DNA of 40,936 bases from Anaerolineae bacterium (lineage in GTDB: Bacteria > Chloroflexota > Anaerolineae > CG2-30-64-16): NCBI GenBank assembly GCA_026645775.1, contig JAPKMS010000206.1, forward strand, positions 1 through 40,936, written 5' to 3'. A program made the position numbers and the translations under genes. This document shows positions 7,258-29,223 of the stretch, piece by piece (position 1 is the stretch's first letter; each line of letters starts with the position of its first letter). Below the pieces are notes generated by a model that was given only the letters and a program-made list of their open reading frames with translations, was not told where the DNA came from and ran no database searches.

Positions 7258-7312
7258 GTTTCCGGTTTCCTCCGCAAATCCATAAATCGGTTTAAGAACG
7301 ATGGGCCGCGCA

Positions 7313-8880: not shown

Positions 8881-8902
8881 GGGTGCGTGCTCCGGTATCG
8901 GT

Positions 8903-8931
8903 TTGACGGCCAATCTAGCACGGAATATAAT
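8903..8931 (+). promoter_or_regulatory. Sigma70-type promoter for mfnB
   Basis: TTGACG at 8903-8908 and a perfect TATAAT at 8926-8931 are separated by 17 bases. Predicted transcription starts near 8938, giving a leader of about 40 bases before the ATG at 8978, which is preceded by AAGGAAG. It overlaps the opposite promoter at 8912-8940. Confidence 0.75.
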
Positions 8932-8940
8932 CCGCGTCAA
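8912..8940 (-). promoter_or_regulatory. Sigma70-type promoter for the 8880-3392 unit
   Basis: On the minus strand TTGACG (8940-8935) and TAGATT (8917-8912) are 17 bases apart. Predicted transcription starts near 8905, about 25 bases upstream of the ATG at 8880. Each promoter's -10 element lies within the other's spacer, so the two cannot easily be occupied at once. Confidence 0.65.
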
Positions 8941-8977
8941 TGAGATGCCGCAAGGGCTCCCACAAGGAAGCGTTTGA

Positions 8978-9697: not shown

Positions 9698-9708
9698 GCC
9701 CCGGTGGT

Positions 9709-9750
9709 ACGATTTCGGGTGTTGGCTCTGCCCCGAACCCCGGAAATCGT
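9709..9750. terminator. Inverted repeat between converging genes
   Basis: ACGATTTC at 9709-9716 pairs perfectly with GAAATCGT at 9743-9750. GGG (9717-9719) pairs with CCC just inside, leaving one bulged G. It lies just after the mfnB stop and touches the stop codon of the converging kinase gene, so it is a likely bidirectional transcription end. No long T-run follows on either strand. Confidence 0.5.
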
Positions 9751-10514: not shown

Positions 10515-10521
10515 CACCGGA

Positions 10522-13338: not shown

Positions 13339-13345
13339 TGGCGGC

Positions 13346-13825
13346 TTACGCGTCCCGGCTGTACCACGCCGTCTGGCCCGGAGCTTCCTCTACGCCCACG
13401 CTGATCTTCAGCGGCCGATCCCCGTACTCGGCCTGTAACGCCTTTGCCAACGCCTCGGAGATGTATTCGGCCAGCCGCTCGGCGGTCACGTTGTCGAGCG
13501 GCAGTGGCAGCACGTCCCGGCTGGGGAAGACGTAGCGGCGGTCGCCGTAGTTAATCTGCCAGTGGCCATCGCTCTCCTGCAAGACAAATTGCTCGTTCTT
13601 GAGGGGCAGCAGGAACCGGTGGTCCAGGATCTCGCAAATGTCCCTGAGCGTGTGCTTGAGCAACACAAAATCGACCACGTAGCTATCCGGGCCCAGCGGC
13701 CCCTCAACAATGGCCGAGACGCCGTAGTTGTGACCGTGCAGACGCTCGCACTTGCCGCCCATCGTAATGAAATGGGCCGCGCCAAACCGTAGATTGCCCC
13801 CTTCGACAATGACCTTGAAGCTCAT
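13346..13825 (-). CDS. 6-pyruvoyl-tetrahydropterin synthase family protein with CExxHGH motif
   Basis: The 159-residue product has the zinc ligands of the PTPS/QueD family, H18 in FGAAHF and H30/H32 in LHGHNY. The active-site motif is C26-E27-x-x-H-G-H. To my knowledge members with both the Cys and the Glu (PTPS-I/III type) can cleave dihydroneopterin triphosphate to 6-hydroxymethyl-dihydropterin, bypassing the aldolase FolB. The gene lies one base after the HPPK-FolE2 fusion, whose GTP cyclohydrolase half makes the substrate and whose HPPK half uses the product. QueD-like tunneling to queuosine is the alternative, but no queuosine genes are visible. Confidence 0.8.
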   Translation of the reverse strand: MSFKVIVEGGNLRFGAAHFITMGGKCERLHGHNYGVSAIVEGPLGPDSYVVDFVLLKHTLRDICEILDHRFLLPLKNEQFVLQESDGHWQINYGDRRYVFPSRDVLPLPLDNVTAERLAEYISEALAKALQAEYGDRPLKISVGVEEAPGQTAWYSRDA

Positions 13826-13826
13826 C

Positions 13827-15284
13827 TCACATCTCCAACCATTCGTTTAAGCTTGTATGTCGGGCCAGATGCTGGCTTTCCCGCATGTCGCCCCGGAGTT
13901 CGCCCAGAGTCCCGTAGCGCTCGGCAAACGCGTTGTGCTTGTGGATCCCCTCGAAGTTAACCTGTTTGGCCGAAACGAAGGTGCTGTCGGGCAGATGCGG
14001 GTATCGCTCGACGACGTTGCGCAGTATCTCACGCACGACGTCCTCCACAAAGCGCGGGTGATGATGGGCCTTGTTGACCACGAAGAACTCGTCCGGGCGC
14101 TTCAACCGGCCATAGGTCTCGGAGCTCATGGATGATTCCACGATCTCCACCAGATCCTCGGCGCGGATAAGTTCATCTGCACCGATCATCAAGGTGCCGC
14201 GGCCCCGCTGATTGTGCGAGGCGATCGGAATCACGTTCAGTGCAAGGTCCGCCGCTTCAGGCGTGAACCCTTCTTCGATCAACCGCATCCGTGAGTGCTC
14301 GCGCACCATGTCCTGCGCGCACGGGCACACGGTCATCCCCTCGGCCTCTACGCCGATCACGTGTCGTGTGCGCTCCGGGGTGCTGACCGCGATCCCCAGC
14401 AGGGTGTAGAGTTCTTGCGATTTCCTGGCCGACACCGGGGCAGACTTCTCCACGGGGAAAATCGCCCGCACATGCGCTTCGGCCCGCCGTGCATGCTGCC
14501 GCAGCACGATCTCCCGCGCCACGCGCTCGGTCAACGTCTCGATGTCAGGCGCGCGTTGGAGGGCAATCTCATCCGCCGTCTCCTCCAGGACATCGCTGAA
14601 GCGCGACATGTGCACGCCCATCTGGGTGCGGTCGAGGTCGGCGAACAGATCGATCTCTGCGTAAAACAAGGTGTTATCCCCGCGGCTATCGATCCGGATG
14701 ATGCGCCTGAGGCCGGCCACCCCCACCCGCGTCAGACCGACCTGAACCGCCGGGCTGGTCTCTTGCACGTCATGCACCGGCTGCAACTGGAGGTCGCGTG
14801 CCGCAGCCACCACCCCCAACCGATCCACTCGCGCGAGCAAATCGGCGACGCTGGCATGCAGCACGGGATGAACACAATTCGGCGCGATCTCGGCCAGGGG
14901 CACCAAGACGAAAGCTCGCTCGTGCAGGCGCGGGTGCGGGATCACCAGGTCGCCCGACTCCAGCACCAGGTCATCATAGAACAGGATGTCGATGTCGATG
15001 GGCCGCGGGCCGTCCCGGAACGTTTTTTCGCGCCCCATCCGCGCCTCGATCTGTTTCAACGAGGCGAGCAGTTCTTGCGGAGCCAGCTCGGTGCTGATCG
15101 CACAGGCGATGTTCAAAAACTTGGGCTGATCCAGGTAGCCGACCGGCTCGGTTTCATAACAGGCGGAGACCCGTTCAACCGTCGCCCGCGCCCGGATATG
15201 CTGCAACGCCTGTGCCAGGTTGCTTTGGCGATCTCCCAGGTTGGCACCCAGGCCAAGATAGACTTTATGCTGTGTAAATGTCAC
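13827..15284 (-). CDS. HPPK (FolK) fused to GTP cyclohydrolase FolE2/MptA
   Basis: A 485-residue two-domain protein. Residues 1 to about 160 are HPPK: GLGANLGDRQSNL at 11-23 and DGPRPIDIDILFYDD at 91-105. Residues about 168-485 are a COG1469 GTP cyclohydrolase (FolE2 or MptA): CPC at 320-322, SHNQRG at 356-361, and FVSAKQVNFEGIHKHNAFAERYG near the end. FolE2 makes dihydroneopterin triphosphate; MptA makes the 2',3'-cyclic phosphate; I cannot separate the two by eye. HPPK activates hydroxymethyl-dihydropterin with ATP. The GTG start (15284) follows GGAGGTG and overlaps the upstream TGA. This is the first and third pterin step in one chain, with the middle step encoded next door. Confidence 0.88.
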   Translation of the reverse strand: MTFTQHKVYLGLGANLGDRQSNLAQALQHIRARATVERVSACYETEPVGYLDQPKFLNIACAISTELAPQELLASLKQIEARMGREKTFRDGPRPIDIDILFYDDLVLESGDLVIPHPRLHERAFVLVPLAEIAPNCVHPVLHASVADLLARVDRLGVVAAARDLQLQPVHDVQETSPAVQVGLTRVGVAGLRRIIRIDSRGDNTLFYAEIDLFADLDRTQMGVHMSRFSDVLEETADEIALQRAPDIETLTERVAREIVLRQHARRAEAHVRAIFPVEKSAPVSARKSQELYTLLGIAVSTPERTRHVIGVEAEGMTVCPCAQDMVREHSRMRLIEEGFTPEAADLALNVIPIASHNQRGRGTLMIGADELIRAEDLVEIVESSMSSETYGRLKRPDEFFVVNKAHHHPRFVEDVVREILRNVVERYPHLPDSTFVSAKQVNFEGIHKHNAFAERYGTLGELRGDMRESQHLARHTSLNEWLEM

Positions 15285-16156
15285 GCCACACCTCCATCTT
15301 CACGTCTCACAAGCCGCAAGAAAATGGCCGCCGCGATCAGATCTGCGGTCGTGCCGGGGTTCAATGTGTGCCTCTCGTCGCGCAGGGCCCGGTCAAATGC
15401 CGCCAGGGCTTGCCGCCCGGCGGCGCTGAAAACACCGCCCAGTTGCAGAACTTCAGCCGCCTGCTCGGACACTTGGGCGCTCACCGCGGCCCCGCGCTTG
15501 CGCCCGATCAGCGTGTCGGGAACCTGCGCGAGGAGTGCCAGAAAACCCTGCACGATCGCCTGATCGAGCCGCTCGGCAGCATCGCCGGCCCGGGCCAAAG
15601 CCGGCAGCGCGATCTCGAACGTGATGGCGAAGTCGCTCACATACTCGCGCGCGATGGCATCGTGCGCCTGGCTCAACGCCATGGCCTCGCGCAACGTGAT
15701 GTCTGGGACGTCTCGCACATCGGCTTCCGGCGCCTGACCCAGCCCGCCGGGTGCGGCCAACCGGATCGCAGCGTACACCGACCGGGCATCTTCCACCGTC
15801 AGGCCGGCCAGCACCCGCGCCAGATTCGCTCGGATGTCGCCCGGCGCCGTGCAGGCCTTGGCGAGCGGCGCCAGCAAGAGGACCATGCCCAGGTTCGTGT
15901 TGGAGCCCACCAGCTTGCGCGTGGCATTGACCGCGTCCCAAACGATCTGTCCAACGCTGTTTTGCTCCGCCCGCGCAAAGGCAGCGCCGATGGCGGCGGC
16001 ACTCAGGAGGAAATCTTCGAAGCGCGTATCGGTGAAATCGGCCGTGCGATGGACATTGCCCGGCTTGGCCGCGCTGACCTCAAGCAGGCAGGCGGCTTGT
16101 GCCGCGAGCGCGACACCCTCAGCCGAGCGGGGCAGCATAGGCCAGCCGCGTCTCAT
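15281..16156 (-). CDS. Triphosphoribosyl-dephospho-CoA synthase family protein (CitG/MdcB-like)
   Basis: The 291-residue product has the hallmark CitG motifs: AAKPGNVHRTADFTDTRFEDF near residue 30, GSNTNLGMVLLLAPLA in the middle, and HTLNPGTTADLIAAAIFLRL at the C-terminus. Classic CitG makes the prosthetic-group precursor of citrate or malonate lyases, but no lyase genes are present. Homologues are regular members of H4MPT gene clusters in methylotrophs, where they may attach a phosphoribosyl unit to a cofactor. The ATG overlaps the TGA of the RimK-like gene. Specific role unknown. Confidence 0.8.
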   Translation of the reverse strand: MRRGWPMLPRSAEGVALAAQAACLLEVSAAKPGNVHRTADFTDTRFEDFLLSAAAIGAAFARAEQNSVGQIVWDAVNATRKLVGSNTNLGMVLLLAPLAKACTAPGDIRANLARVLAGLTVEDARSVYAAIRLAAPGGLGQAPEADVRDVPDITLREAMALSQAHDAIAREYVSDFAITFEIALPALARAGDAAERLDQAIVQGFLALLAQVPDTLIGRKRGAAVSAQVSEQAAEVLQLGGVFSAAGRQALAAFDRALRDERHTLNPGTTADLIAAAIFLRLVRREDGGVA

Positions 16157-17040
16157 GGGCGAATCAGCCCAAGCACGTGATCCGCGATGGCGCCCGCGAT
16201 GTCGAACGCGACGGTGGTTTGCAGGCCGTGCCAGCCCGGAATGCTGTTGACTTCCAGGACGAACGGATCACCCTGTTGGCTGCAAACGATGTCCACCCCC
16301 GCGTAGTCCGTGCCCACCAGACTGGCCGCGCGCAGTGCCAGCGCGGTCAGAGCCGGATCGAGCGCCAGCGCTTCGCTGCGGGCGCCCTGTGCCACGTTCG
16401 TTTTCCAGCCGTTCCCGCGCCGCGCCGACGCAGCCAGGAGCTGCCCGCCCAAAACGAAGGCTCGGATGTCCCAGTCGTCGTGCGGGATATACTCTTGCAG
16501 GTAATACACGTAACGTCCAAGCTCCAACGCCCGAAAAATGCGATGGGCCAGGTCCGCGTCGGTGAGGCGCATCATGCCTTTGCCTTCGGAGCCGAACAGC
16601 GGTTTCAGGATCACGTCGCCGCCCAGCTCGCCAAAGGCGGCCGCGGCTTCATCGAAGCATTCGGTCACAATCGTGCGCGGGGTGGGCAGACCGGCGTCCT
16701 CAAGCAAGCTGGAGGTGTAGTACTTGTCCACGGTCTTTTCGATGGCGCTGGCCGAATTGATCACGCGCAGCCCCATGTTTTCCAGGCGGTGCAGCAGATC
16801 CACGCGGAAGATGACCTGTTCCAGCGAGGCGATCGGGATGCCGCGCACCACCAACGCGTCGCAATCATCGATGGCGATACCGCGGGCGCTGGCGCGCGGC
16901 GCAGCCGCCACGCGGCCCACCAGCCGGGTGCTGTTGAAATGCTCGACCGTCACACCCCGCTGCTCCAACGCTTCTTGCAAGCGTACGACGTGCCAGCCGC
17001 CGGGCTCGGAAGCCATGATGCCGATCTTCACATCACCCAC
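16153..17040 (-). CDS. RimK-like ATP-grasp glutamate ligase (MptN-type candidate)
   Basis: The 295-residue product shows a RimK-type ATP-grasp layout: the hinge DAGLPTPRTIVTE, the loop VILKPLFGSEGKGMMRL, DWDIRAFVLGG, and the metal site VLEVNSIPGWHGLQ. RimK relatives add glutamate to cofactors: MptN to H4MPT, CofF to F420, RimK to ribosomal S6. Placed directly between mch and the CitG-like gene, it most likely adds glutamates to the pterin or to methylofuran, which in methylotrophs carries a long glutamate chain. The GTG at 17040 overlaps the mch stop by eight bases; another GTG at 17031 is possible. Confidence 0.75.
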   Translation of the reverse strand: MGDVKIGIMASEPGGWHVVRLQEALEQRGVTVEHFNSTRLVGRVAAAPRASARGIAIDDCDALVVRGIPIASLEQVIFRVDLLHRLENMGLRVINSASAIEKTVDKYYTSSLLEDAGLPTPRTIVTECFDEAAAAFGELGGDVILKPLFGSEGKGMMRLTDADLAHRIFRALELGRYVYYLQEYIPHDDWDIRAFVLGGQLLAASARRGNGWKTNVAQGARSEALALDPALTALALRAASLVGTDYAGVDIVCSQQGDPFVLEVNSIPGWHGLQTTVAFDIAGAIADHVLGLIRP

Positions 17041-17998
17041 CCAACAACGAAGCGCTCAGGACCCCGGCATTCAGCCGGCCCGCCGTGAAACTCCGGCCGC
17101 TGGCGACGTTGTTGATCGTCACCTGCGCCGGGCTGAACAGAAGCGGATCGATCGCATAGAAATCGCCGCCGTACTGCTTGAACAGACGATAGAACGGCTG
17201 ACCATAGTCGCGCGAGGCCGACGACGGGATGCGGTCGATCAAGTCGGCCAATTCGGCGTCGTCTGCGCGGACGGTGTAGAAGACCCGGCCGCCGTACAGG
17301 ACGCAGTCGTTGGTGCGGCCGATGGCGTGCATATCGTCCTTATCCACCGGGGCGATCGGCGCGGCGCCGTAACCGCTCAGCACCTGGCGGACGTCGAACC
17401 CCAGTTCGACCAGCTTGTGCAAGCCGGTTTCCACCACGCGCGCCGAGATCTGAATGCCGCCCGCCAACGACGCGGTCGGTGCGATCAACAACGTCAGCGC
17501 CGCGACGGGCACGCCGCACTTATCAGCGATGTACGCGGCCACTTCGTCGGTAGGCAACTGACGGCTCTCCAGCACGATCACGGCCGAGTCAGCCTGGTCG
17601 CGGTAGCCAAGCTTGTCGTACAGCTTCTCGACAACCGCCAGCGCACGCGCCGGCCCGGAGCCCATCGCGAAGTACTTCCCGCGCTTGATGGCCCACCCCG
17701 CGTATTGCGCGGCCATGCAGCCGATGGCCGGCTGGTCGACGGCCACGCCGAGGCCCGGCAGCCAGAACGCGGGGCCTTCATCCGCCCCGAACGCCAGTGG
17801 CAAAAAAGTCACCTGGCCCAATCCGCCCATGCAGACCTCGGCCAGGTATTTGCCGGCCTGCAAACCGCCCGGCGCGGCGACGCCACAATCCAGCAGGCGC
17901 GCGCCGCCGGGCAACCGTGACACCGTGATGCCGAGCACGTCGGCCTGCGCGGCCATCTGTTCGACAAGCGCAGCCGCTGCCCTGTTGACGCTGATCAT
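17033..17998 (-). CDS. mch: Methenyl-H4MPT cyclohydrolase, copy 1
   Basis: The 321-residue product opens ISVNRAAAALVEQMA and carries the conserved FWLPGLGVAVDQPAIGCMAAQYAGW, ATGSGPARAL-like segment (FAMGSGPARAL), TNDCVLYGG and DFYAIDPLLFSPAQVTINN regions of Mch. The enzyme interconverts methenyl-H4MPT and N5-formyl-H4MPT in the cytoplasm, between MtdB and Ftr. It sits in the fhc operon directly after fhcC with an ATGA overlap, the arrangement expected for a housekeeping copy. A second mch lies at 26600-27553. Length and motifs are complete, so this copy should be active. Confidence 0.95.
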   Translation of the reverse strand: MISVNRAAAALVEQMAAQADVLGITVSRLPGGARLLDCGVAAPGGLQAGKYLAEVCMGGLGQVTFLPLAFGADEGPAFWLPGLGVAVDQPAIGCMAAQYAGWAIKRGKYFAMGSGPARALAVVEKLYDKLGYRDQADSAVIVLESRQLPTDEVAAYIADKCGVPVAALTLLIAPTASLAGGIQISARVVETGLHKLVELGFDVRQVLSGYGAAPIAPVDKDDMHAIGRTNDCVLYGGRVFYTVRADDAELADLIDRIPSSASRDYGQPFYRLFKQYGGDFYAIDPLLFSPAQVTINNVASGRSFTAGRLNAGVLSASLLGG

Positions 17999-18804
17999 GC
18001 TGCCTCCCACACCAGGATCTCACCTTTGCCCAGCGCCGTCATGTCACCGCTGTAGCGCCGATACCGGCCGTGTAGGTAGGCCTCCGGCACCGCCACGCCC
18101 AACCCGGCCAGGTGGCGCAGGAGCAGACCCATAAACGGCGGCGCATACGTGCAGGCATAACGGTACGAAGGGAGCAGGCGCGGCGGCTTGAAAGCCACGA
18201 CGGTGCCCCGTTTGAGAGCCGCGCCGGTCCGCTCGCCCAACTCACCGAAAACGACCACCGTGCCCGCGATCATGAACGCGCCGGTGAAGTCACCACTGTT
18301 GCCGCCGATGACGATCAAGCCGCGGCGCATCGCCGTCCCCGCCTCATTGCCGGCATCGCCATCTACGATGATAACGCCGCGATTCATCCCCTTTGGGCTG
18401 CCGCGATAGCCCGCGCCCAGGCAGTGGCCCGCATTCCCGCGGATGTGGATGTGGCCGCCCTGCATTTCCGCGCCGGCCCAATCCCCGACAGCGCCATCGA
18501 CCATGATCCGGCCGCCCCGCATCCCCGCGCCCAGGTGCATGCCGGCATTGCCGCGCACATGGATCTGGCCCTGCGTCATGCCGGCGCCGATCAGCTTCAC
18601 ACGTGCGAGGTCGCCTTCGAGGACGATTTCAGGCCCGCCGTCGCCGGAGACTGCAAAGAACTCACCCAGGCAGGCCTTCCGGTTGCCGACGTTGACCGGG
18701 AGCGCGGCGATCTCGTCCGCGGTCTTGCCGATGAAACGATCGGGCGAAATCGATTCCGCCTCAAGGGGAACCTCCGGCAGGTCTTTGAGCTGCAAAGTCG
18801 TCAT
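17995..18804 (-). CDS. fhcC: Formyltransferase/hydrolase (formylmethanofuran dehydrogenase) subunit C
   Basis: The 269-residue product is built from repeated short blades such as GAGMTQGQIHVRGNAGMHLG, GGRIMVDGAVGDWAGAEM and GLIVIGGNSGDFTGAFM. These form the right-handed beta-helix shared with the glutamate synthase C-terminal domain. In the archaeal and bacterial complexes subunit C is the scaffold joining A, B and the formyltransferase. The ATG overlaps the ftr stop as ATGA, and its own stop overlaps mch the same way, implying translational coupling and fixed stoichiometry. Confidence 0.93.
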   Translation of the reverse strand: MTTLQLKDLPEVPLEAESISPDRFIGKTADEIAALPVNVGNRKACLGEFFAVSGDGGPEIVLEGDLARVKLIGAGMTQGQIHVRGNAGMHLGAGMRGGRIMVDGAVGDWAGAEMQGGHIHIRGNAGHCLGAGYRGSPKGMNRGVIIVDGDAGNEAGTAMRRGLIVIGGNSGDFTGAFMIAGTVVVFGELGERTGAALKRGTVVAFKPPRLLPSYRYACTYAPPFMGLLLRHLAGLGVAVPEAYLHGRYRRYSGDMTALGKGEILVWEAA

Positions 18805-19688
18805 GCTTGCCCCTCCAGTACCCGGCACAGGTGGATCTGGAACTGGCCGAGCGTGCCGCCATAGTTGCCGGCCGAGATGCGCCGGATGCCCGGAATGCAG
18901 GCCGCGCGCACGCCGACCCGGGTGGCTTCCTCCACCGCGGCCAGATCGAGCCCGTCGATCACAATTTCCAGGACGGAATTGACGCCCTCGGGCAACGCCG
19001 TGTCGGTAATCCCCCGCAGCGTCGGACAGTAAGCATCGTTGGTCGAGGCGATCAGCGCCTTGTAGCGCGAGCTGGTTTTGCTGCCGCTTCGCACAATGCC
19101 GCCAGGGAAAGGCAGGATGACGCCCGGCGCCTGTCGCATGGCGGCTGCCGCGCACTCCGCCGCCCGGAGGGTGACCTCGGCATCTTCACCCAGGATCAGG
19201 AAGTTTCCACCGCCTACTGCGCGCTGCATGCCAAACTTCTCTTCGATCAGGAACTCGCCTTCCATCACCGGGATGCGCCAGAAGCGCCGGCCGCCAACCA
19301 GCTTGCTCGCCTGGAAGCTGTCGCCGAAGAAACGCAACTGGCCGCCGATGGGCATGGTCAGCGGGCTATCCAGGCCGTTGAAGCAGGCGGTGGTCGGGCA
19401 CGTCAGCACACACTGGCCGATGCGCTCCATCAGGCGCTTGGGCAGGTCCTCCTTGCCCGGCGTGAACAGCAGGACGCTGACACCGGGGCGGCCATCCGGG
19501 GTATCGGTTGCCACCCCCTCGATGCCCGCCTCGCACTTGCAGCCGATCACCGACGTGGCAAACCCGGTCATGGTGGTCGCTGCGATCATCGCCCAGCGCG
19601 CGTTGCAGGCCGTGATGATGACCCGGCTGCCCCACATCTTGAACGCTTCAGCGAAGGTCTCTTCGATCTCCACCCCATTGAGATACAT
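18801..19688 (-). CDS. fhcD: Formylmethanofuran:H4MPT formyltransferase (Ftr/FhcD)
   Basis: The 295-residue product contains the family opening NGVEIEETFAEAFKMWGSRV, SVIGCKCEAGIEG, GKEDLPKRLMERIGQCVLTCPTT-type segment (residues about 75-100) and the FPGGIVRSGSKTSSRYK region. Ftr transfers the formyl group between H4MPT and methanofuran; in bacteria it is subunit D of the Fhc complex. Length is normal for the family. The ATG is preceded by GGGAG. The spacer to fhcA holds a short tandem repeat (19708-19731). The operon order fhcB-fhcA-fhcD-fhcC resembles that of methylotrophs. Confidence 0.95.
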   Translation of the reverse strand: MYLNGVEIEETFAEAFKMWGSRVIITACNARWAMIAATTMTGFATSVIGCKCEAGIEGVATDTPDGRPGVSVLLFTPGKEDLPKRLMERIGQCVLTCPTTACFNGLDSPLTMPIGGQLRFFGDSFQASKLVGGRRFWRIPVMEGEFLIEEKFGMQRAVGGGNFLILGEDAEVTLRAAECAAAAMRQAPGVILPFPGGIVRSGSKTSSRYKALIASTNDAYCPTLRGITDTALPEGVNSVLEIVIDGLDLAAVEEATRVGVRAACIPGIRRISAGNYGGTLGQFQIHLCRVLEGQA

Positions 19689-19707: not shown

Positions 19708-19731
19708 AACGTTCCAACGTTCTAACGTTCA
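19708..19731. repeat. Three 8-base tandem units at the fhcA-ftr junction
   Basis: AACGTTCC, AACGTTCT and AACGTTCA follow one another without gaps. Each contains the palindrome AACGTT. The array covers the last codons of fhcA and the short spacer before ftr. It may be neutral slippage or a protein or RNA site that tunes the ratio of the two subunits. Confidence 0.75.
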
Positions 19732-21350
19732 TGACAGGGCACGGCGACGCGGTCGGGCAGGTAGTGTTCGAGCTGCACCGGGTAGTTTTCAAAGTCCACC
19801 GTGTAGTACCGCTCGAAATCGTCGCTGATCGCGGCCTCGATTTGCCCATCATAGCCCGGCGTCACGTGCAGGCAGCGGCCCGGCTGGTCGCGCACGATGC
19901 GGCCGTCACGGGCGACAATCTGCCCGCCCTTGATGACGTAGCGCGGGTGATAGAACATCTCCTTGGGATCTTCCACTTGCGGGTAGATAGCGATGTCCGC
20001 GTCCGCGCCGACGCCCAGGTGTCCCTTGTTCGCCAGGCCCAGACAGCGCGCCGGGCCCGCGCGGGTGATCGTCACAATCTCAGAGAGCGTGTACTCGCGC
20101 CGCAGATCCTTGAGGCCGCTCCGCGTGCTGGCCGCGCTGTGAACGCCCGCCAGCGTGGCCGCCCGATAATCGGCATCCATCAGCAGCTTGATGATGTCGG
20201 GATACGCGTGGAACGGGCCTGCATTCGGATGATCGGTGGTGAGGTACATGCGCCAGGGATCATCGATCAACAACGCCAACTCCAGGCCGATGGCCCACTG
20301 CACCGCGTTGACCGCGCTGCGCTTGCTGAACTGATAGGGCACCACCCCCGCGCTGGTCTCCATCTCGACATCCGCGTTGGCCCACTTGTGCCCGGACAGC
20401 TCATACAGCCGGTGCTGCCAGGGCCCATCGGCCGTCATCGTGGTCACCGGGCCGAAAACCACCTGGCCCATGTCCACCGTGACGTTACGATGGCTGTTCA
20501 CGTAATCCGCGATCTCCGCTGCGCCAGAGCGGATGTCGCTCCAACCGGCGCCGCCGTACGCGTTGAATTGGGCGTGGGTGATGTGCACCGGCAGGCCATC
20601 GAGGGCTTGCAGCGTCTGCAGCGTCGTCGCGACGTTACCCGGTGACCCCAGGTTGTTGCAGTGCAGATGGATCACGTGGGGCAGGCCCAATTCCTGCTGC
20701 ACGCGCGCCAGGCTTGTCACGATCTGCCGCGGCGTCACTGGGAAGGTGTCGGCCGGCTCATCGATGTCGTTGACGTTGCGGCCCCATTTCCAGGTATCGA
20801 CGCCGGCCGGGTTGACGATCTTGATCGCATAGCCCCCGGTCGCGTTCAGCAGCCAGGCGACGTAGTCTTTGAGTCGGGCAAAGTCGTTCTCCGCGATATA
20901 CTTCAGCACGAAGTAGTTGTTCCCCATCAGACATAGGAAGCCGTGGTCCAGGATGGGCATATCGTTGAGCTCTTCGTGCACGTGACGCGCGCCCAACGGC
21001 GGGGCAGCCGCTTCCATCACCGTGGTGTAACCCAACTGCGCCATGTGATAGCCCATCGCAAAAGTGGAAGGCACCGTATGGCCGACCCCCGACCGGGTCA
21101 GCGCGGTGCGCGGGATGGGCATCGCGCGGTGGTCTTCCGGGCGCATCTTGCGCCCGGCATTAACCTTGGCGCCGGCCACGTGGGCATGAAACTCGACGCC
21201 GCCCGGCATCACGATCAGGCCCTGCGCATCGATGACTTGGCCGCCCTCGACAGCCGCCACGATCTTGCCGTCGGCCACGCAGATATCCCGGACCTCGCCT
21301 GCGATGCCGTTTGCAGGATCGTACACCGTGCCATTAATGATCCGGAGCAT
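19722..21350 (-). CDS. fhcA: Formyltransferase/hydrolase (formylmethanofuran dehydrogenase) subunit A
   Basis: The 542-residue product is an amidohydrolase-fold subunit with the dinuclear-zinc motif EFHAHVAG (H55, H57), a lysine at 177 in AIKIVNPAG in the place of the carboxylated lysine of archaeal FwdA, the later HLHCNN and HITHAQFNAYGG histidine segments and the YLTTDHPNAG aspartate. Subunit A interconverts formyl-methanofuran and formate plus methanofuran. In archaea the formate passes along a tunnel to subunit B. The ATG at 21350 has a strong AAGGAGGTGA five bases upstream, lying inside the end of fhcB. All expected metal ligands appear present. Confidence 0.95.
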   Translation of the reverse strand: MLRIINGTVYDPANGIAGEVRDICVADGKIVAAVEGGQVIDAQGLIVMPGGVEFHAHVAGAKVNAGRKMRPEDHRAMPIPRTALTRSGVGHTVPSTFAMGYHMAQLGYTTVMEAAAPPLGARHVHEELNDMPILDHGFLCLMGNNYFVLKYIAENDFARLKDYVAWLLNATGGYAIKIVNPAGVDTWKWGRNVNDIDEPADTFPVTPRQIVTSLARVQQELGLPHVIHLHCNNLGSPGNVATTLQTLQALDGLPVHITHAQFNAYGGAGWSDIRSGAAEIADYVNSHRNVTVDMGQVVFGPVTTMTADGPWQHRLYELSGHKWANADVEMETSAGVVPYQFSKRSAVNAVQWAIGLELALLIDDPWRMYLTTDHPNAGPFHAYPDIIKLLMDADYRAATLAGVHSAASTRSGLKDLRREYTLSEIVTITRAGPARCLGLANKGHLGVGADADIAIYPQVEDPKEMFYHPRYVIKGGQIVARDGRIVRDQPGRCLHVTPGYDGQIEAAISDDFERYYTVDFENYPVQLEHYLPDRVAVPCHER

Positions 21351-21351
21351 A

Positions 21352-22656
21352 TCAGTCACCTCCTTGGCCGATCGTCTGCAGGCGGCGGACTTCGGCCACC
21401 AGGCGGCTCAACACCTCTTCGTCGTTCGGATAGGGCGAAGGCAGGAAGCTGCGCAGCATGAGCGGCACGTTGTCCATCCGGTAGATCGTCCCCGCGGCGC
21501 TGATGCCCGCCGTCGCGGTCATGATGGCAACCCTGGCGATCTTCGTCGTCTCGCTGGGATGCGTGTCCAGGACGATCGTCGGGATCTGCGCCAGGCGGCG
21601 CGTGGCTGAGCGCGGAAAGTTGGAGGCCGGGTCCGAGGCGACAACCAGGACTGCATCCGCCTCATTGCGGGCCAGCAGATCGACCGCCGTAAATTCACCG
21701 GGATTAAAGCGCGGATAGCCGCGGCTGAAGTTGACGGCAAAGGGATAGCCCGTCTGCCAGGCCAGCACGTTGTCGATGCCGGTGACATTGCCGTGGCCGC
21801 GCATGGGGATGACGGCAAACTTGGTGTAGCTCTGCAGATCGCGCGCCAGCATGAAGGCCGCCGTCATGTTCATGTGGCGGCCGCGGCTCTGGGTCAGTCC
21901 CTGGCCGACGAAGAAGACGCCGAACTTGCACTTCTTGAGGCGCTCGGCAAGGTCCCCCAATTGAGCCAGCGAAAGGCCGGTGTCGGCGACGGCCGCTTCA
22001 TCGATGGCGATACCGCGGATCAAGCAGCGCAGCGCCCAGAACACCTCGAAGTCGCGGCCGGGCTTGATCTGGAGGAAGATGTCCACCGCCCGGCTGCTGG
22101 GGGTGGGCCGCACGTCGACCAGCACCACCGTGCGGCCCTTGCGGCCAGTGGGCGTGAACAGGCCCTTCGGGGTGACGGCATAGCGCGTGAAGTGGCGCGG
22201 GTGCGACTCGGCCGGGTTCGAACCCCAATAGATCACCAGGTCCGCCCGGTTCTTGACCTCGCCCAGCGTACACGACGGTTCGCCCACGGTCTGGAACCCC
22301 ATGCCCGAGGGGCCGTGACAGACGGAGGTGCAGCAGTCGATGTTGGCGCCCAGTAGATCGGCCAGCGCAACCGCCTGGCGTTGGGCCTCGCTGTAGGTGC
22401 TGCTCAGGCCGTAGATCAACGGGTAGCGGGCCGCGGCCAGGTAACTTGCTGCGGCGGCAATGGCTTGATCCAGGCTGGCCGGCTGGCCATCGATCAGCGC
22501 GGCCGGCTCATGCGCCTCCGCGGTGTGGCCCGTCAGCCAGGACTTGCTGAGCGCACAGGCCTGCTTCACGCCGGTGATTCGCCCCTCCTCGATGGTCACA
22601 GTGAGGTCATCGCAGACGCAGCCGCAGAAGGCGCAGACTACGTGTTCAACTTGCAT
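21352..22656 (-). CDS. fhcB: Formylmethanofuran dehydrogenase-type subunit B with intact Fe-S and metal-ligand cysteines
   Basis: The 434-residue product belongs to the molybdopterin oxidoreductase family. It keeps CAFCGCVCDDL at residues 8-18, with C8, C11 and C15 spaced as in archaeal FwdB, and C34 as the fourth [4Fe-4S] ligand. The Mo/W-ligand cysteine is in place as C113 in TSVCHGPS. Further FwdB-like segments are VKNRADLVIYWGSNPAESHP, GQGLTQSRGRH and FAVIPMRGHGNVTGIDN. In Methylorubrum, as I recall, FhcB has lost these cofactor sites and the complex works only as a hydrolase. Here they are intact, so formate/CO2 redox chemistry is plausible. GAGGAGG lies five bases before the ATG. Confidence 0.92.
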   Translation of the reverse strand: MQVEHVVCAFCGCVCDDLTVTIEEGRITGVKQACALSKSWLTGHTAEAHEPAALIDGQPASLDQAIAAAASYLAAARYPLIYGLSSTYSEAQRQAVALADLLGANIDCCTSVCHGPSGMGFQTVGEPSCTLGEVKNRADLVIYWGSNPAESHPRHFTRYAVTPKGLFTPTGRKGRTVVLVDVRPTPSSRAVDIFLQIKPGRDFEVFWALRCLIRGIAIDEAAVADTGLSLAQLGDLAERLKKCKFGVFFVGQGLTQSRGRHMNMTAAFMLARDLQSYTKFAVIPMRGHGNVTGIDNVLAWQTGYPFAVNFSRGYPRFNPGEFTAVDLLARNEADAVLVVASDPASNFPRSATRRLAQIPTIVLDTHPSETTKIARVAIMTATAGISAAGTIYRMDNVPLMLRSFLPSPYPNDEEVLSRLVAEVRRLQTIGQGGD

Positions 22657-22665
22657 GGTTCCTCC

Positions 22666-23001
22666 TCACATCTTACAGACGACAACGTCGAGCCGCTTGG
22701 AGTCCGGCATCCCGGATGCGCCGGTCTCCGTGCCCACCAGATCGCTTGAGGCGGGCCCAAAAGCGATGAAAGCCATGCCGATGGGCAAATCACCCCGCCG
22801 GCAGCGGACGTCGGTCTGTCCAAACGGGCTGCGCACCCGGATTTCGTCGCCATCCTGGACGTCCAGTTGCTGCATGTCGCTGCCGCTCATTTCCAGGGTG
22901 CTGACCGCTGCCCGGTACTCGGCGGAGTTTTTGCCCAGGTTCAGCCCCGTGCCCTGTTTCAGGCTGCGTCCCGTGATCAACACCAGTTTCAGTTCAGACA
23001 T
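22666..23001 (-). CDS. fwdD: Formylmethanofuran dehydrogenase subunit D (molybdopterin dinucleotide-binding)
   Basis: The 111-residue product starts KLVLITGRSLKQGTGLNLGK and contains LDVQDGDEIRVRSPFG and GMAFIAFGPASSDL, the small double-psi barrel that closes over the pterin dinucleotide in archaeal FwdD/FmdD. It sits ten bases upstream of fhcB and overlaps the preceding ATP-grasp gene by eight bases, so it is part of the operon. Bacterial formyltransferase/hydrolase complexes described in methylotrophs lack this subunit. Its presence supports a molybdopterin cofactor in subunit B. GGGAG precedes the ATG. Confidence 0.88.
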   Translation of the reverse strand: MSELKLVLITGRSLKQGTGLNLGKNSAEYRAAVSTLEMSGSDMQQLDVQDGDEIRVRSPFGQTDVRCRRGDLPIGMAFIAFGPASSDLVGTETGASGMPDSKRLDVVVCKM

Positions 23002-24190
23002 ACAACTCCCCTCCCAGCGCCTCTGCTTGATCGAGCAAGCCGGCGTAGCAGGCGTCAGTGGTCGCCGCGCGGCTCAACACAGTACAGACAGGGCTGCCCT
23101 TGACGATGGCCTCACCGGGAAACGGCACGTCACGGATCCCCCGCTCGGCCCAACCGCGCGTGTCTGGCGCCCGGCAATCGCGTTCAGCATACAGGATCGC
23201 TTTGCCATAGGTGCTCCGGTTGGCGCCGATCGCTTGCGCTCCGTCCGCGTGGCCCCGGCCAGGGTCCGACAGATCGCCGTGGAGCACCGCACGGACATGG
23301 CAGTCGAACATCGACAGCCCCCGGGCCGCTTCGATCAGCTCCATCGAAGCCGAGTATCGCGGATTAACCTCAAGCGGCCAAACGCGGCCATCGCACAGCA
23401 CAAAATCCAGCCCATTGAGCCCCACCAGGCCGAACTCACGGGTCAGCGCCGTCGCCAGGTCACTCACCTCGGGCTCCAACGCACTGACCGCACCGCCATC
23501 TGCCCGCAGCAACGGGTACAAATTGCCGCAGTAGATAAAACCCGTTGCGCCGAAAGCGGCTTGCCCGATCAGTTGCTCAGTCAACCCCAAGACGACGGCC
23601 TCCCGGCGGTTCGCCACAAAGGCCGCCGAACAAACCTGCCCGGCCAGGTGTTGCTGGAGCAGGTAGCCCCGGCCGGGCGGCCTGCCCGCATCCCAGAATG
23701 TGACACCGCGGCCCCCGCCGCTGCCGACCGGCTTGCGCAGCCAGCGGTGCGGAGCCGCTGGGGCTGGCCGGTTGCCAAAACGCGTTTGCGGGGTGGGCAC
23801 GCCCCGGTCTTGCAGGAAAGCGAACAGGGCCGGCCCGTGGCGCACCCGTTTCAGCGCCTCCGGACAATTGCCCAGCAGGCCCGCCCCAGTGCCTCCTGCG
23901 TCGGAGGTCCCCCGTAAAGCGGCGCCGGCAGCCAGCCGCGCGACGGTGGCCGGATGGTTTTCCAGGCTGGCCGTATAGACGACGGCATCGTATTGCAACC
24001 GGCGGCTGGCCTCGTAGAGCGGCCCCGGCCCGTACGGCAGCCCGAAGTCCCGCGCCAACGCGTAGTTCTCGCACCAGGCCTTTTGATCGTAATCGCCAAA
24101 GTAGTCCAGCGTAACAAAATCGTAGCCGGCCGCCTGCGCCGACTCTGCGATCGCACGGGTGCTCACCCCGGTGATCAGGATACGCGTCAT
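22994..24190 (-). CDS. ATP-grasp family protein (COG2232-like) of the H4MPT cluster
   Basis: The 398-residue product opens with a Rossmann-like segment ILITGVSTRAIAESAQAAG. The ATP-grasp core follows: DRGVPTPQTRFGN, WLRKPVGSGGGRGV, a lid region with YLLQQHLAGQVCSAAF, and GLNGLDFVLCDGRVWPLEVNPRYSASME for metal binding. Relatives of this type occur in archaeal and methylotroph H4MPT clusters, but the substrate is not known. It is the third ATP-grasp gene in the island, besides the MfnD-like and RimK-like ones. It sits six bases after the DUF1464 gene and overlaps fwdD. Confidence 0.75.
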   Translation of the reverse strand: MTRILITGVSTRAIAESAQAAGYDFVTLDYFGDYDQKAWCENYALARDFGLPYGPGPLYEASRRLQYDAVVYTASLENHPATVARLAAGAALRGTSDAGGTGAGLLGNCPEALKRVRHGPALFAFLQDRGVPTPQTRFGNRPAPAAPHRWLRKPVGSGGGRGVTFWDAGRPPGRGYLLQQHLAGQVCSAAFVANRREAVVLGLTEQLIGQAAFGATGFIYCGNLYPLLRADGGAVSALEPEVSDLATALTREFGLVGLNGLDFVLCDGRVWPLEVNPRYSASMELIEAARGLSMFDCHVRAVLHGDLSDPGRGHADGAQAIGANRSTYGKAILYAERDCRAPDTRGWAERGIRDVPFPGEAIVKGSPVCTVLSRAATTDACYAGLLDQAEALGGELYV

Positions 24191-24196
24191 GCTCCC

Positions 24197-25288
24197 TCAG
24201 CCCAGGTAACGCCGTCGCAACGCTTCGGCATCCTGGATATACAGATGATCCAGCACCGTCCCGGCCGCGCCCCGCAACCGCAACGCCGCCACCAGATCAG
24301 CGCACTGACCGCCCGCCAGCCCGTCGGCCAGGAGCGCCGCGCCCTGCGCCGCCTCCTTGGCGACCTGGGCGATGCCGGCCACCCGGCGGACCGGGCCAAA
24401 GGGGCTCAGTCGCCGCGCCAGCTCCTCACGAATCTTGGCCGTGCGGCAGAGCCGGCCGGAGATCAGGATCTCGCGCGGGCCGGGCACGACAGCCAACTCC
24501 GCCGCCACGCTCTTGACAACCCCTTCCAACAGCGCTTCCCAGGCCACCCGCGCCCGCTCATCGTGATCGACCCGTTCCGCAAACGCTTCAGGGGATAACG
24601 CAGGGTCGCCGGCGATGTACGCCGCGCCGCCGGTGAACAGGACCTCCTTGTGGAATGTGCCGAGCAGATAGGCCAACTCGCCGTCCATGCTGCCCAACGA
24701 ATAATAGCCGGGCCCGCCGGTTGTGCCGCCCAGGCCATCGACGACCTGCCCGCCGGCGACCGCCATCACCGCGGTGTAAGCGCCGCCCACCTCGGCATAG
24801 ATGAAAGATGTCTCGGAATAGGGGATGGCGTAGCGGCGGGCCTGATCGAACACGCCCAAGGCCAGACAGCACAGCTTATCGGCGGTGCCCATGTCCACCT
24901 TGTTCGCCTTGCGGTGCTCGGGGACCGTGGGCAGGTGAATGACGCCTGGCAGAAACACGATGGGCAAGCCGCTCTCCCGCATCAGGCGGATCATCTTGCC
25001 CATGCCGCCCAGCACGGGGATCCGCCCGCGCTCGCGTTCATCGACCAGCGTGAAGAGGAACCGCTCGGCCGCGCCAAAATCCGTGATGGCGGTCAGCGGG
25101 AGGCCATACCCTGAAGGCGCCGCGATCAGGTCGACCGGGGCCGCCGATTGGAGCAGGTCGATCAACGTCTGGGGGTTCTCAGCAAACTCCGGCGACGGCA
25201 GCGTCGTATCCAGAAAAACATGGCCATCATCCAGGCCACAGATGTCGAAGCTTACCGTGCCCGGGTCGATCCCAATGACGCGCGTCAT
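24197..25288 (-). CDS. DUF1464 family ASKHA-fold protein
   Basis: The 363-residue product starts VIGIDPGTVSFDICGLDDG, a phosphate-binding loop of the sugar-kinase/Hsp70 type. It also has VEGGAYTAV-like (AEVGGAYTAVMAV) and ILISGRLCRTAKIREEL segments. It matches the DUF1464/COG2441 family, sometimes labelled predicted butyrate kinase without proof, which is common in archaea with H4MPT. GGGGGT precedes the ATG. The tight spacing to the next gene suggests shared regulation. The substrate is unknown; a cofactor intermediate is one possibility. Confidence 0.72.
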   Translation of the reverse strand: MTRVIGIDPGTVSFDICGLDDGHVFLDTTLPSPEFAENPQTLIDLLQSAAPVDLIAAPSGYGLPLTAITDFGAAERFLFTLVDERERGRIPVLGGMGKMIRLMRESGLPIVFLPGVIHLPTVPEHRKANKVDMGTADKLCCLALGVFDQARRYAIPYSETSFIYAEVGGAYTAVMAVAGGQVVDGLGGTTGGPGYYSLGSMDGELAYLLGTFHKEVLFTGGAAYIAGDPALSPEAFAERVDHDERARVAWEALLEGVVKSVAAELAVVPGPREILISGRLCRTAKIREELARRLSPFGPVRRVAGIAQVAKEAAQGAALLADGLAGGQCADLVAALRLRGAAGTVLDHLYIQDAEALRRRYLG

Positions 25289-25488: not shown

Positions 25489-26343
25489 CTACAGCGCCTT
25501 TCCGATCGCGTAGATTTCCTCAACATCGAGCACCAGGTCGTTCTGCTCGAAAAGTCGGGCCACGGCCGCCCGATGGATCTTCATCTTCAAGCCGCCGATG
25601 CCCAGCGCACCGAAGGCGAGCTTGCCATCCCGCGGTTTGCCATCATCGGTGGCCTTGATCCCTTCAATGCCTAACGGCGGCACCGCGTTGATGTCGGCGA
25701 CGACTTCCAGCACGGGTTGAGCGACCCACACCGCCTTGGAGACAAGCTGCACCCCAGCCGCGCCGGCCGCCAGTGCGACCGCTGCGCCATCCAGTGCGCG
25801 CGCCACAGCCTGTTCGTCGCTGACCTCGAGCGGGATCACGTCCAGCCCGAAACGCTCCTTGATATCCTGCGCCGCCTGTTGTGCGCGGGCCAACGAGCGT
25901 GAAGTGAGCACCACCCGTGCGCCCTCCTTGGCCAACAGGGTCGCCGCACGTACGCCCACCGGGCCGGTGCCCGCGAAAATGGCGGCCCCTTTGCCGGCTA
26001 CCGAGGTCGCGCGGATAATCTTCAACACCGCCGCCGCAGCCGTGGTATTGGCGCCGTTGGGGTCAGCCATCACCGAGACGCGCACCGGGCCGAAGAATGC
26101 ATCGGTGGCGGCCTTCAACATGCGCTCGCCGGCCTGGACAGAGGAACCGCCGATGAAGATCGCACTGTTCTTCAGCGCGTCGCCCCCGCGCGTGAACATC
26201 GCCCCGTAAACCAGATTGCGCACATCGTCCACACCGACGCCGCCATAGGCCAGCACATGATCGACACCGGCATCGTAGGCGGTGATGCCGTCGAACGCAC
26301 TCGGATGCTTATCGCTGTCCAACTGGATCAGGAGTTTCTGCAT
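25489..26343 (-). CDS. mtdB: NAD(P)-dependent methylene-H4MPT dehydrogenase (MtdB)
   Basis: The 284-residue product follows the MtdB pattern closely. It opens KLLIQLDSDKHPSAFDGITAYD, continues with FFGPVRVSVMADPNGANTTAAA and a dinucleotide-binding loop AAIFAGTGPVGVRAATLLA, and ends FGALGIGGLKMKIHRAAVARLFE. It oxidises methylene-H4MPT to methenyl-H4MPT with NAD+ or NADP+, feeding Mch. The ATG at 26343 is preceded by GGAGGA. It heads the long minus-strand unit and is divergent from the second mch across about 256 bases. I see no convincing minus-strand promoter; TTGAGT and GATAAT near 26463 and 26440 are badly spaced. Confidence 0.93.
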   Translation of the reverse strand: MQKLLIQLDSDKHPSAFDGITAYDAGVDHVLAYGGVGVDDVRNLVYGAMFTRGGDALKNSAIFIGGSSVQAGERMLKAATDAFFGPVRVSVMADPNGANTTAAAAVLKIIRATSVAGKGAAIFAGTGPVGVRAATLLAKEGARVVLTSRSLARAQQAAQDIKERFGLDVIPLEVSDEQAVARALDGAAVALAAGAAGVQLVSKAVWVAQPVLEVVADINAVPPLGIEGIKATDDGKPRDGKLAFGALGIGGLKMKIHRAAVARLFEQNDLVLDVEEIYAIGKAL

Positions 26344-26458
26344 GGCTCTTCCTCCCTGGGTATCTTGGCTCAAGTTTAGCCGATCCACTTTTTATCTGAG
26401 GTTCCTCCTGGTCGAATCGCTGGCTCATCCAGGAAGATCATTATCCCGGCCGCGGACG

Positions 26459-26541: not shown

Positions 26542-26599
26542 ATGGATCATCTCGCCCATGATGCCAGGACGGCGGATGGTGTTAGAAGGAGGATCCCCT

Positions 26600-27553
26600 A
26601 TGATCAGTGTCAACCAACAAGCGGCCGCGATTGTCGCGGAGATGGTCGAACAGGCAGAACGATTAGGGATCGATGTTTCGCTCCTATCCTGCGGAACCCG
26701 TGTGATCGATATCGGCCTGAGGGCCCCCGGTGGGCTGCTGGCGGGCCTGCACACCGCCAACCTCAGCCTGGGCGGGATGGGTCAGGTTCACTTCCAGGCG
26801 CTTGATTACGGCAATTTCTGGCTGCCGGGCGTGGCCATTGCGGTAGATCAGCCCGAAATCGGGTGCATGGCCTCACAATATGCCGGCTGGGGCATCCGCA
26901 AACCGGACTTCTTTGCAATTGGCTCAGGGCCGGCACGGGCTCGGGCCAGGGTCGAGGCGTTGTTCGGCGCCCTGGACTACCGGGATGACGCCGATCTGGC
27001 GGTGTTGATCCTCGAAGGCCGGAACATGCCCAGTGAGGCCATGGCTGAATACATTGCCCGCAAATGTCGCCTGGACCCGGCGCAGGTGACGCTCATCATG
27101 GCCCCGGCGGCCTGTCAGGCTGGGCTGGTGCAGCTCTCAGCCCGGGCGGTGGCCACCGGTATGCACAAGATGTTCAAGCTCGGCTTCGACGTGCGCAAGG
27201 TGCTGCACGGATTCGGCACCTGTCCGATTCCGCCTGTGGTGCCGGACGAAGATCTGGCTTCGGCACACGCCAACGACTGCGTGCTGTACGGCGCTCGCAT
27301 CCAGTACAGCATGGCCGCAGAAGATGCCGAGTTGGCGGAGCTCATCGAGCGCATCCCGTCAACGGCCTCGCCTGATTACGGCACCCCCTGCCAGGAACTG
27401 TTCCAACGTTATGGTGACTTCTACGCCATCGACCCGCTGCTGTTCTGCCCGGCAGAAGTGACGATCAACAACCTGACCAGCGGGCGGGTCTTCCACGCCG
27501 GTCGGACCAACCCTCAGGTTTTGCAGCGAGCGTTATTCGGGTCCGCGGCCTGA
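26600..27553 (+). CDS. mch: Methenyl-H4MPT cyclohydrolase, copy 2
   Basis: The 317-residue product has the full Mch pattern: opening ISVNQQAAAIVAEMVEQAER, FWLPGVAIAVDQPEIGCMAS, FFAIGSGPARARARVEALFG, HANDCVLYGARI and FYAIDPLLFCPAEVTINN. It is clearly diverged from copy 1 at 17033-17998 throughout. It has its own promoter, a strong AAGGAGGAT ribosome site and its own terminator, so it is a single-gene unit. Both copies keep the same motifs, so neither looks inactive. Possible reasons for two copies are different expression conditions or different pterin variants. Confidence 0.94.
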   Translation: MISVNQQAAAIVAEMVEQAERLGIDVSLLSCGTRVIDIGLRAPGGLLAGLHTANLSLGGMGQVHFQALDYGNFWLPGVAIAVDQPEIGCMASQYAGWGIRKPDFFAIGSGPARARARVEALFGALDYRDDADLAVLILEGRNMPSEAMAEYIARKCRLDPAQVTLIMAPAACQAGLVQLSARAVATGMHKMFKLGFDVRKVLHGFGTCPIPPVVPDEDLASAHANDCVLYGARIQYSMAAEDAELAELIERIPSTASPDYGTPCQELFQRYGDFYAIDPLLFCPAEVTINNLTSGRVFHAGRTNPQVLQRALFGSAA

Positions 27554-27675: not shown

Positions 27676-29223
27676 TTAGACTGCCTCGTCCCAGTTGCAG
27701 TAGCCCTTGGCTCCGGCGCCCAGGCCGGTGACATAGGGCACATTACGCTTGAGCAGATCGGTGGTGGCGCAGTCCTTGCACGTGCGAGCCGGCGAACCGG
27801 GTTTGTTGGGCGTCAGCGCGATGATGTTGGTCATCAGCGTGGCGGTAACGCACTCGGTAGTCAGGAAGCACGGGTAGTCCGACAGGCTCATCAGTGCCGC
27901 AAAGCGTTGCGTGATGGCGCAGGCCGGATAGGTGTAACGCTGCGGGTTAGCAATTACCTCGTTGTCGTCGATCGGCGACAGGTCCACAGGGATGCCCTTG
28001 ATCTTGCCGCCGCTGCCCTTGGGCACGATGTCGAGGATCGACTCGCCGCGCTTGAGGATGTCCATGAAGTCGGCGTTGTGCAGCTCGTCGGCCCCGCCGC
28101 GCTTCGGGTTCATGACCACATAGTTGTGGAAGCGCTTGTTGAGCAGGTCGATGACCATCGGAACGGTGAAGGCATCCTTCCAGAGGATGTAGGCCACCGC
28201 GCAGGCGCCCGCGCCGGTGGCGACGCTCAAGATGTCGTACGGGCTCTTGAACGCATCCATCTCGAGGCCGCGGCGCAGGGTGTTCTCGTACACCGCGGTC
28301 ACAGCCTTGAAGATGTTGAAGACCATCTCATCGTTGAACATGTTGAAGGAGGCCGGCCCGAGGTGATGGCCGATGTCGCCTACGCAGTAGGCTGGCACAG
28401 TCACGATGTTGCCGGGATGCACGCCCGCTTCCAGGGCCTTCAGCACGAACGGCTTCATCATGGCCTTATACTGCTTCATATACTCGGCCGTGTCGAAGGA
28501 GGTGTGCGGCCCGTGCCCACCCAGGTTATGGGTCAGCATGAGGTGGGTCTGAGCTGCGGAGGGCTCGCGGTAGATGAACTGCCACATGTCGAGCTCGGCC
28601 TGCTCCGCTTCGGCCAGGCTCTTGCCCTCTTCGACTGCACCGCGGAAGGCACTGCCCAGGCCATAGGAGGTATTCATGCCCCACGACTTGGCTGACAGGA
28701 TCGTGCGTTTGTGATCCTTCGGGATGTCCATGCCGCGGAGGATGCGGTTGACGACATTCGAAGTGGAGCCAACCGAGAAAGCGAAGTCGACAACACAGGT
28801 CAGGCCGTACATCCCGCCATAGATACGGGCCGATTCGCGACCGAGGAGTGCCCGGTTCTCAGCCAGAGCATCGATGAACTTCCACATCGACGCCTTGAAC
28901 GCCGGGTCCGCATCGTAGAGAATTTCCAGGATTGGCGGCGTCTGATAGTGCTCAACAAAGGGGTCATCCTCGGGGCGGATGGTGTTGTTGACGGCGATCT
29001 TGTTGAGGATATCGTAGTGTGCGTTGACCGACTGTACGTGCAGGTCAAAGATTTCCTTGGATTGCCCCTCGGCCGGCTTCATGCCGTTCACCGCATCAAC
29101 GTAGGGTTTCGCATCGGTGAAAACGAAGGGCCCGCCACGCTTCTTGCCGATCACCGCCAAATCTGCGTCAGCGGCCGCCGACGCCTCGGCAATCATCTTC
29201 TGGTACAGTGCATTAACTGCCAT
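27676..29223 (-). CDS. Large conserved protein, probably DUF2193 family
   Basis: The 515-residue product has no recognised catalytic motif. Its size, opening (ALYQKMIAEASAAADADLAV) and glycine/histidine-rich middle (LTHNLGGHGPHTSF, CVGDIGHHLGPASFN) recall the archaeal family DUF2193, but that is from memory and unconfirmed. The last quarter has seven cysteines, in YPACAI, YPCFLTTECVTATL, CKDCATT and the final CNWDEAV, so a metal or Fe-S site is possible. GGAGG lies 11 bases before the ATG. It shares a promoter and leader with the glutaredoxin-like gene upstream, and a strong hairpin ends the unit. Being next to the H4MPT island suggests a C1 or energy-related role, which is inference. Confidence 0.5.
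   Translation of the reverse strand: MAVNALYQKMIAEASAAADADLAVIGKKRGGPFVFTDAKPYVDAVNGMKPAEGQSKEIFDLHVQSVNAHYDILNKIAVNNTIRPEDDPFVEHYQTPPILEILYDADPAFKASMWKFIDALAENRALLGRESARIYGGMYGLTCVVDFAFSVGSTSNVVNRILRGMDIPKDHKRTILSAKSWGMNTSYGLGSAFRGAVEEGKSLAEAEQAELDMWQFIYREPSAAQTHLMLTHNLGGHGPHTSFDTAEYMKQYKAMMKPFVLKALEAGVHPGNIVTVPAYCVGDIGHHLGPASFNMFNDEMVFNIFKAVTAVYENTLRRGLEMDAFKSPYDILSVATGAGACAVAYILWKDAFTVPMVIDLLNKRFHNYVVMNPKRGGADELHNADFMDILKRGESILDIVPKGSGGKIKGIPVDLSPIDDNEVIANPQRYTYPACAITQRFAALMSLSDYPCFLTTECVTATLMTNIIALTPNKPGSPARTCKDCATTDLLKRNVPYVTGLGAGAKGYCNWDEAV

Follow-up and report, generated by a model that had tools for sequence, protein, structure and literature searches.

The DNA analysed here, a 40,936-nucleotide contig of an Anaerolineae bacterium (JAPKMS010000206.1; the window, below, is this whole stretch), carries an operon which, on sequence comparison, probably encodes a formylmethanofuran dehydrogenase of the FwdABCD type that is redox-active, and ftr also belongs to this operon. 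The gene order is fwdD-B-A-ftr-fwdC-mch on the minus strand, with short gaps or overlaps between genes: fwdD (22666..23001), for a molybdopterin-dinucleotide-binding subunit of 111 aa; fwdB (21352..22656), for the catalytic W/Mo subunit of 434 aa; fwdA (19722..21359), for the amidohydrolase subunit; ftr, or fhcD (18801..19688), for formylmethanofuran:H4MPT formyltransferase; fwdC (17995..18804); and mch (17033..18010), for methenyl-H4MPT cyclohydrolase. Both fwdB and fwdD are real genes and not chance ORFs, as are fwdA, fwdC, ftr and mch. FwdB scores 511.7 bits against the NCBIfam FwdB equivalog model (TIGR03129, cut-off 327.8 bits). FwdD scores 45.6 bits against Pfam Molydop_binding (PF01568, cut-off 26.8 bits) and matches solved FwdD chains at E values from 1.8e-15 (best) to 1.2e-8; its score is under the 175-bit cut-off of the strict archaeal model NF042908. 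The initial annotation had placed fwdD directly upstream of fwdB, and the two are indeed adjacent ORFs 9 bp apart, both with profile matches. Among the other products, FwdA (TIGR03121, 757.7 bits, above the cut-off) matches 5T5I_A at E 2e-167 and 6S6Y_A at 2.8e-101 and has metal-site-type motifs (H58/H60, K180, H231, H262, D376), FwdC matches TIGR03122 (275.8 bits, cut-off 130.65) and Pfam GXGXG, Ftr matches Pfam FTR and FTR_C, and Mch matches TIGR03120 at 415.9 bits.

FwdB shares 45% identity with Methanothermobacter FwdB and matches the solved archaeal FwdBs at E values of about 1e-119 to 1e-96 (8RJA_B, 3.1e-119; 5T5I_B, 1.1e-116), compared with 1.3e-16 for Methylorubrum extorquens FhcB (6S6Y), and is much closer to the archaeal type. 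In an alignment with 5T5I and other solved archaeal FwdBs, C8, C11, C15 and C34 fall on the Fe-S columns with the archaeal spacing and C113 (in VCHGPS) on the W-ligand column, as had been read from the sequence initially. The M. wolfei FwdB counterparts of C113, H114 and R286 are Cys118, His119 and Arg288 (alignment numbering), whose functional roles we take to be those generally associated with that structure. A metal-ligand role for Cys118 has been described (PMC7325909). This triad is invariant in 24 aligned members of the class to which FwdB belongs, and of the 87 positions that are invariant in five solved archaeal FwdBs the window protein keeps 69, its relatives 65-73, and ten D-less paralogues 35-41. 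An AF2 model of FwdB has 5T5I as its best solved match (TM 0.73), with 8RJA also at the top and 6S6Y weaker (0.55); the active-site loops of this model (110-129, 253-261, 287-290 and 307-321) are of low confidence.

In Gammaproteobacteria, 11 loci carry a gene for a second B subunit, at ten of them within a B-A-ftr-C set beside the first. All 11 of these second, D-less B subunits have lost C113, H114 and R286, and nine keep all four Fe-S cysteines. The triad is lost too in seven D-less FhcBs of plasmid-borne clusters (Thiodictyon, Azospirillum, Paraburkholderia, Azoarcus, Cupriavidus, Aquabacterium and Phyllobacterium), near which no FwdD, ferredoxin or FprA is found, giving 18 D-less FhcBs compared; their contrast with the triad-intact proteins is one of counts on related sequences, and not a test on independent samples. 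A Fisher value from the locus comparison was likewise left unused, because of this relatedness and because some rows of the triad-intact set show no FwdD in the DNA examined. A plasmid search using the window FwdB as query returned no match. The four N-terminal cysteines, which were at first taken as evidence of redox competence, were rejected as a marker because most of the 18 D-less FhcBs keep them, and the diagnostic of the redox type is C113/H114/R286 plus FwdD.

These comparisons bear on whether the complex is hydrolytic in practice, with FwdA and Ftr turning formyl-H4MPT into free formate, FwdB-D persisting as structural remnants, and the formate being oxidised by the NAD-linked formate dehydrogenase encoded elsewhere. 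Such a scheme would suit the location of ftr, which is part of the operon just as it is in bacterial Fhc clusters, the lack of an electron acceptor encoded near the operon, and the NAD-linked-type FdhA, NuoE/F-like subunits and formate transporter encoded in the source genome outside the window. We consider it quite improbable, however, as true Fhc B subunits lack the triad and roughly half of the positions invariant in archaea and are not accompanied by FwdD, whereas all of these are kept here, and relatives are predicted to have selenocysteine at exactly C113. Moreover, some Gammaproteobacteria carry both a redox-type and a hydrolytic complex, side by side, which suggests that the two have different jobs. 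In favor of redox activity, we note FwdD and, in relatives, the predicted selenocysteine at the C113 position and the ferredoxin/FprA and diflavin partners. The genome also encodes MoaA (MoCo synthesis) and other bisPGD-type proteins, among them the NAD-linked-type formate dehydrogenase. Sequence, fold, phylogeny, FwdD and operon thus fit the initial proposal of a true formylmethanofuran dehydrogenase in a bacterium; its redox activity itself, as well as the metal and the electron acceptor, is what we infer.

Bacterial redox-type Fwd is a known kind of complex to which the window operon adds a further member, as bacterial fwdD-B-A operons were published in 2016 (PMC4807772) and 2020 (PMC7325909). 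A scan of genome collections gave at least 558 confirmed relatives, the best 80 of which are almost all bacterial records, and the redox-type class is represented in Gammaproteobacteria, Planctomycetota, Chloroflexota and other groups. Of the 81 redox-type loci with room for FwdD, 77 encode it as a neighbouring gene, as a gene up to about 2 kb away, or as part of a fusion: it is directly adjacent in 65 loci by a strict script, the adjacent D genes of L032 and L089 lie within unusually long open frames and were added by inspection, in five loci a Sec-split fwdB has D upstream of it at no more than about 2 kb, four have diflavin fusions of D, and one has a D-B fusion (L062). In four triad-intact loci (L024, L034, L053 and L075) no FwdD is present in the locus DNA examined. 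The view in the initial annotation that bacterial complexes are generally D-less hydrolases does not survive these counts and the published operons, and the FwdD-bearing loci also show otherwise than an earlier review, which gave fwdD as absent from Planctomycetes and Proteobacteria (PMC5020050). Thirteen Planctomycete fwdBs have exactly one in-frame stop, a TGA at the C113 codon that is predicted to encode selenocysteine (L047, L058, L061, L065, L067, L068, L071, L072, L073, L074, L079, L086 and L088); a selenocysteine FmdB had been reported for one Planctomycete (PMC4807772).

Several individual loci have peculiarities of their own. In a Phycisphaeraceae bin, FwdD and FwdB share one reading frame (L062:3199-5106, +). 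Second FwdB paralogues with Thr at 113 adjoin the selenocysteine copy in two loci (L068:8520-9836, + and L071:7044-8312, +), and the record of L075 is titled Euryarchaeota although its FwdB lies inside a Planctomycete branch, and it is probably a mislabelled bin.

Four characterized or described systems provide useful comparisons. The archaeal W-FwdABCDFG of Methanothermobacter wolfei (5T5I/5T5M) has FwdA, B, C and D homologues in common with the window, the four Fe-S cysteines and the Cys118/His119/Arg288 equivalents are kept, and it is the best fold match; the window differs in having Ftr in the operon, no FwdF/G, and a bacterial host with MtdB. The window FwdB also belongs to a separate bacterial branch, with 30 bacterial FwdB rows on one side (98/98) and five archaeal ones on the other, and recent transfer from archaea is therefore not favored, although archaeal sampling in this tree is thin. 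FhcABCD of M. extorquens (6S6Y) similarly has A, B, C and Ftr-type subunits in one operon surrounded by H4MPT genes, but the window B subunit keeps the triad, matches 6S6Y_B weakly and is accompanied by FwdD; M. extorquens FhcB is described as being without Mo/W-bisPGD (PMC10100899). The Hakuba actinobacterial fwdDBA-ftr-fwdC operon (PMC7325909) is identical in gene order and is likewise without FwdF/G (here within the scope of the window), and both systems have a FwdB with an Fe-S domain and Cys118 and Wood-Ljungdahl genes in the genome, whereas the H4MPT biosynthesis genes reported missing in Hakuba are present in the window. A FwdDBAC set without polyferredoxin FwdF/G is also known in Methanosarcina acetivorans (cited in PMC7325909). 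Finally, the Planctomycete fmdD-fmdB-fmdA-fmdC operon (PMC4807772) shares the D-B-A order and a redox-type B subunit, but has Sec rather than Cys at the metal ligand, and ftr is not named in it.

Relatives of the operon offer candidates for the electron partner. In 22 pseudomonadotal loci, genes for a 7Fe ferredoxin (FdI-like, E about 1e-28) and an FprA/adrenodoxin-reductase-type ferredoxin-NADP reductase (1LQT, E 1.8e-102) are linked to a triad-intact fwd operon, as at L026:14996-15298 and 15308-16687, and 12 of these loci are without a second B set in the locus DNA examined. In Methylococcales/Methylothermaceae-type loci the FwdD domain instead forms the N-terminus of a diflavin NAD(P)H reductase with Flavodoxin_1, FAD_binding_1 and NAD_binding_1 domains, encoded divergently from fwdB (L051:7498-9729, L052:7503-9785, L059:1562-3829, and L057:1-1431, which is partial; all on the minus strand). 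With either arrangement, electrons would be expected to pass between the metal site and NAD(P)(H), and a formyl-methanofuran:NADP+ oxidoreductase is predicted for methanotrophs and other Gammaproteobacteria. We found no earlier report of either in the literature searched, which covered few subscription papers, and these predicted partners are new here and the most valuable output of the analysis. Neither kind of partner is seen near the Chloroflexota operons. The absence of FwdF/G from the window noted initially holds, in that no ORF in it contains the ferredoxin motif CX2CX2CX3C. F420 was considered as an acceptor via an FrhB-type subunit, of which there are none in 12 genomes.

H4MPT pathway genes lie on both sides of the operon. 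Directly upstream of fwdD is an ATP-grasp gene (22994..24190, minus strand; PF02655) that is conserved in Chloroflexota loci, followed in the same run by a DUF1464 gene (24197..25288, minus; PF07318, 320.7 bits) conserved in L012, L014, L016 and L050. Beyond these are an mtdB-type NAD(P)-dependent methylene-H4MPT dehydrogenase gene (25489..26388, minus; Pfam Mpt_N, 107 bits) and, beside it, a second, divergent mch (26558..27553, plus; TIGR03120, 336.3 bits, cut-off 228.8; Pfam MCH). On the other side are genes for an MptN-like RimK-family glutamate ligase of the H4MPT side chain (16153..17040, minus), which is above the TIGR00768 cut-off and, at 255.6 bits, below the NF040720 cut-off of 350, an HPPK-MptA fusion of pterin biosynthesis (13827..15284, minus; TIGR00294 and folK models), the methanofuran biosynthesis enzyme MfnB, 4-HFC-P synthase (8978..9697, plus; PF04476, 242.7 bits), and beta-RFAP synthase of H4MPT biosynthesis (3392..4366, minus; TIGR00144, 213.5 bits, cut-off 113.5). 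Further H4MPT/methanofuran biosynthesis-type genes within 4350..13825 have Pfam matches to DUF447, DHPS-like DUF6513, flavoprotein, AA kinase, hydantoinase-A, ATP-grasp and PTPS.

In the proposed scheme, C1 units on H4MPT would pass MtdB and Mch, Ftr would transfer the formyl group to (methylo)furan, and FwdA would hydrolyse formyl-(methylo)furan inside the complex; formate would then be oxidised to CO2 at the W/Mo-bisPGD site of FwdB-FwdD, with electrons leaving via the FwdB [4Fe-4S] cluster to a soluble ferredoxin-like carrier. The oxidative direction is somewhat favored on two grounds: the formyl-MFR/CO2 couple has a potential near -0.53 V (PMC11656701), and NADP-linked partners are found in relatives. 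If the complex is redox-active, bacteria would have a direct step from formyl carrier to CO2 involving neither free formate nor ATP, and the drawing of the bacterial H4MPT pathway would change.

A sub-case of the redox-active reading is that the complex reduces CO2, forming an archaeal-type methyl branch that uses no ATP and supplies CODH/ACS or biosynthesis beside the H4F branch. Methanogen FwdBs run in this direction (PMC11656701), and the source genome holds ACS beta and CdhD/E-type subunits. In addition, Fae (PF08714) is absent from the source genome and all nine Chloroflexota genome entries tested (G024 and G410 seem to be a single genome), and is present in 19/19 others. The source genome further encodes formate-THF ligase, and relative G409 has a complete CODH/ACS cluster. 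However, CdhD/E and formate-THF ligase are also found in Fwd-less members of the source family, and three Fwd-bearing Chloroflexota (G411, G413 and G414) are without ACS, and we regard CO2 reduction as unlikely. Because the Fwd-less members share CdhD/E and formate-THF ligase, the H4F Wood-Ljungdahl route is characteristic of the family and independent of Fwd, and the presence of ACS was rejected as proof of a hybrid pathway. The Fwd/H4MPT genes appear to constitute an extra branch beside the canonical H4F pathway; that in Fae-less Chloroflexota they provide a hybrid Wood-Ljungdahl pathway with a second methyl branch, which needs no ATP and exchanges C1 units with CODH/ACS, is a tentative suggestion to which we give little weight. 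Methyl entry of the MtrH type was considered, and there is just one weak match, in the source genome. Upstream of mtdB is a gene for a DUF2193 protein (27676..29223, minus; PF09959, 731 bits), which is present in five of the nine Fae-less Chloroflexota entries and in 0/12 other genomes tested. DUF2193 proteins are known from methanogens, and this one is possibly linked to C1 entry; its model has a pLDDT of 57, and a sequence search found no PDB relative.

We also considered that the window contig is foreign DNA misbinned with the source genome, a bin of 4.38 Mb that is 98% complete with a reported contamination of 4.5%. FwdD is found in one of ten genomes of the family, and a strong FwdB match is likewise restricted to one of these ten and to 4/400 genomes of the phylum, as might be expected of a contaminant. 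However, the GC content and tetranucleotide profile of the window match those of the bin (correlation 0.97-0.99), and the nearest FwdBs are from the same phylum, the tree placing the window sequence among Chloroflexota (95/95), such that misbinning is very unlikely. Another genome of the phylum encodes a distant FwdB-like protein that has no metal-ligand Cys (L010:607-2721, minus), and genes for a small FwdD-like and an Fe-S protein lie next to it.
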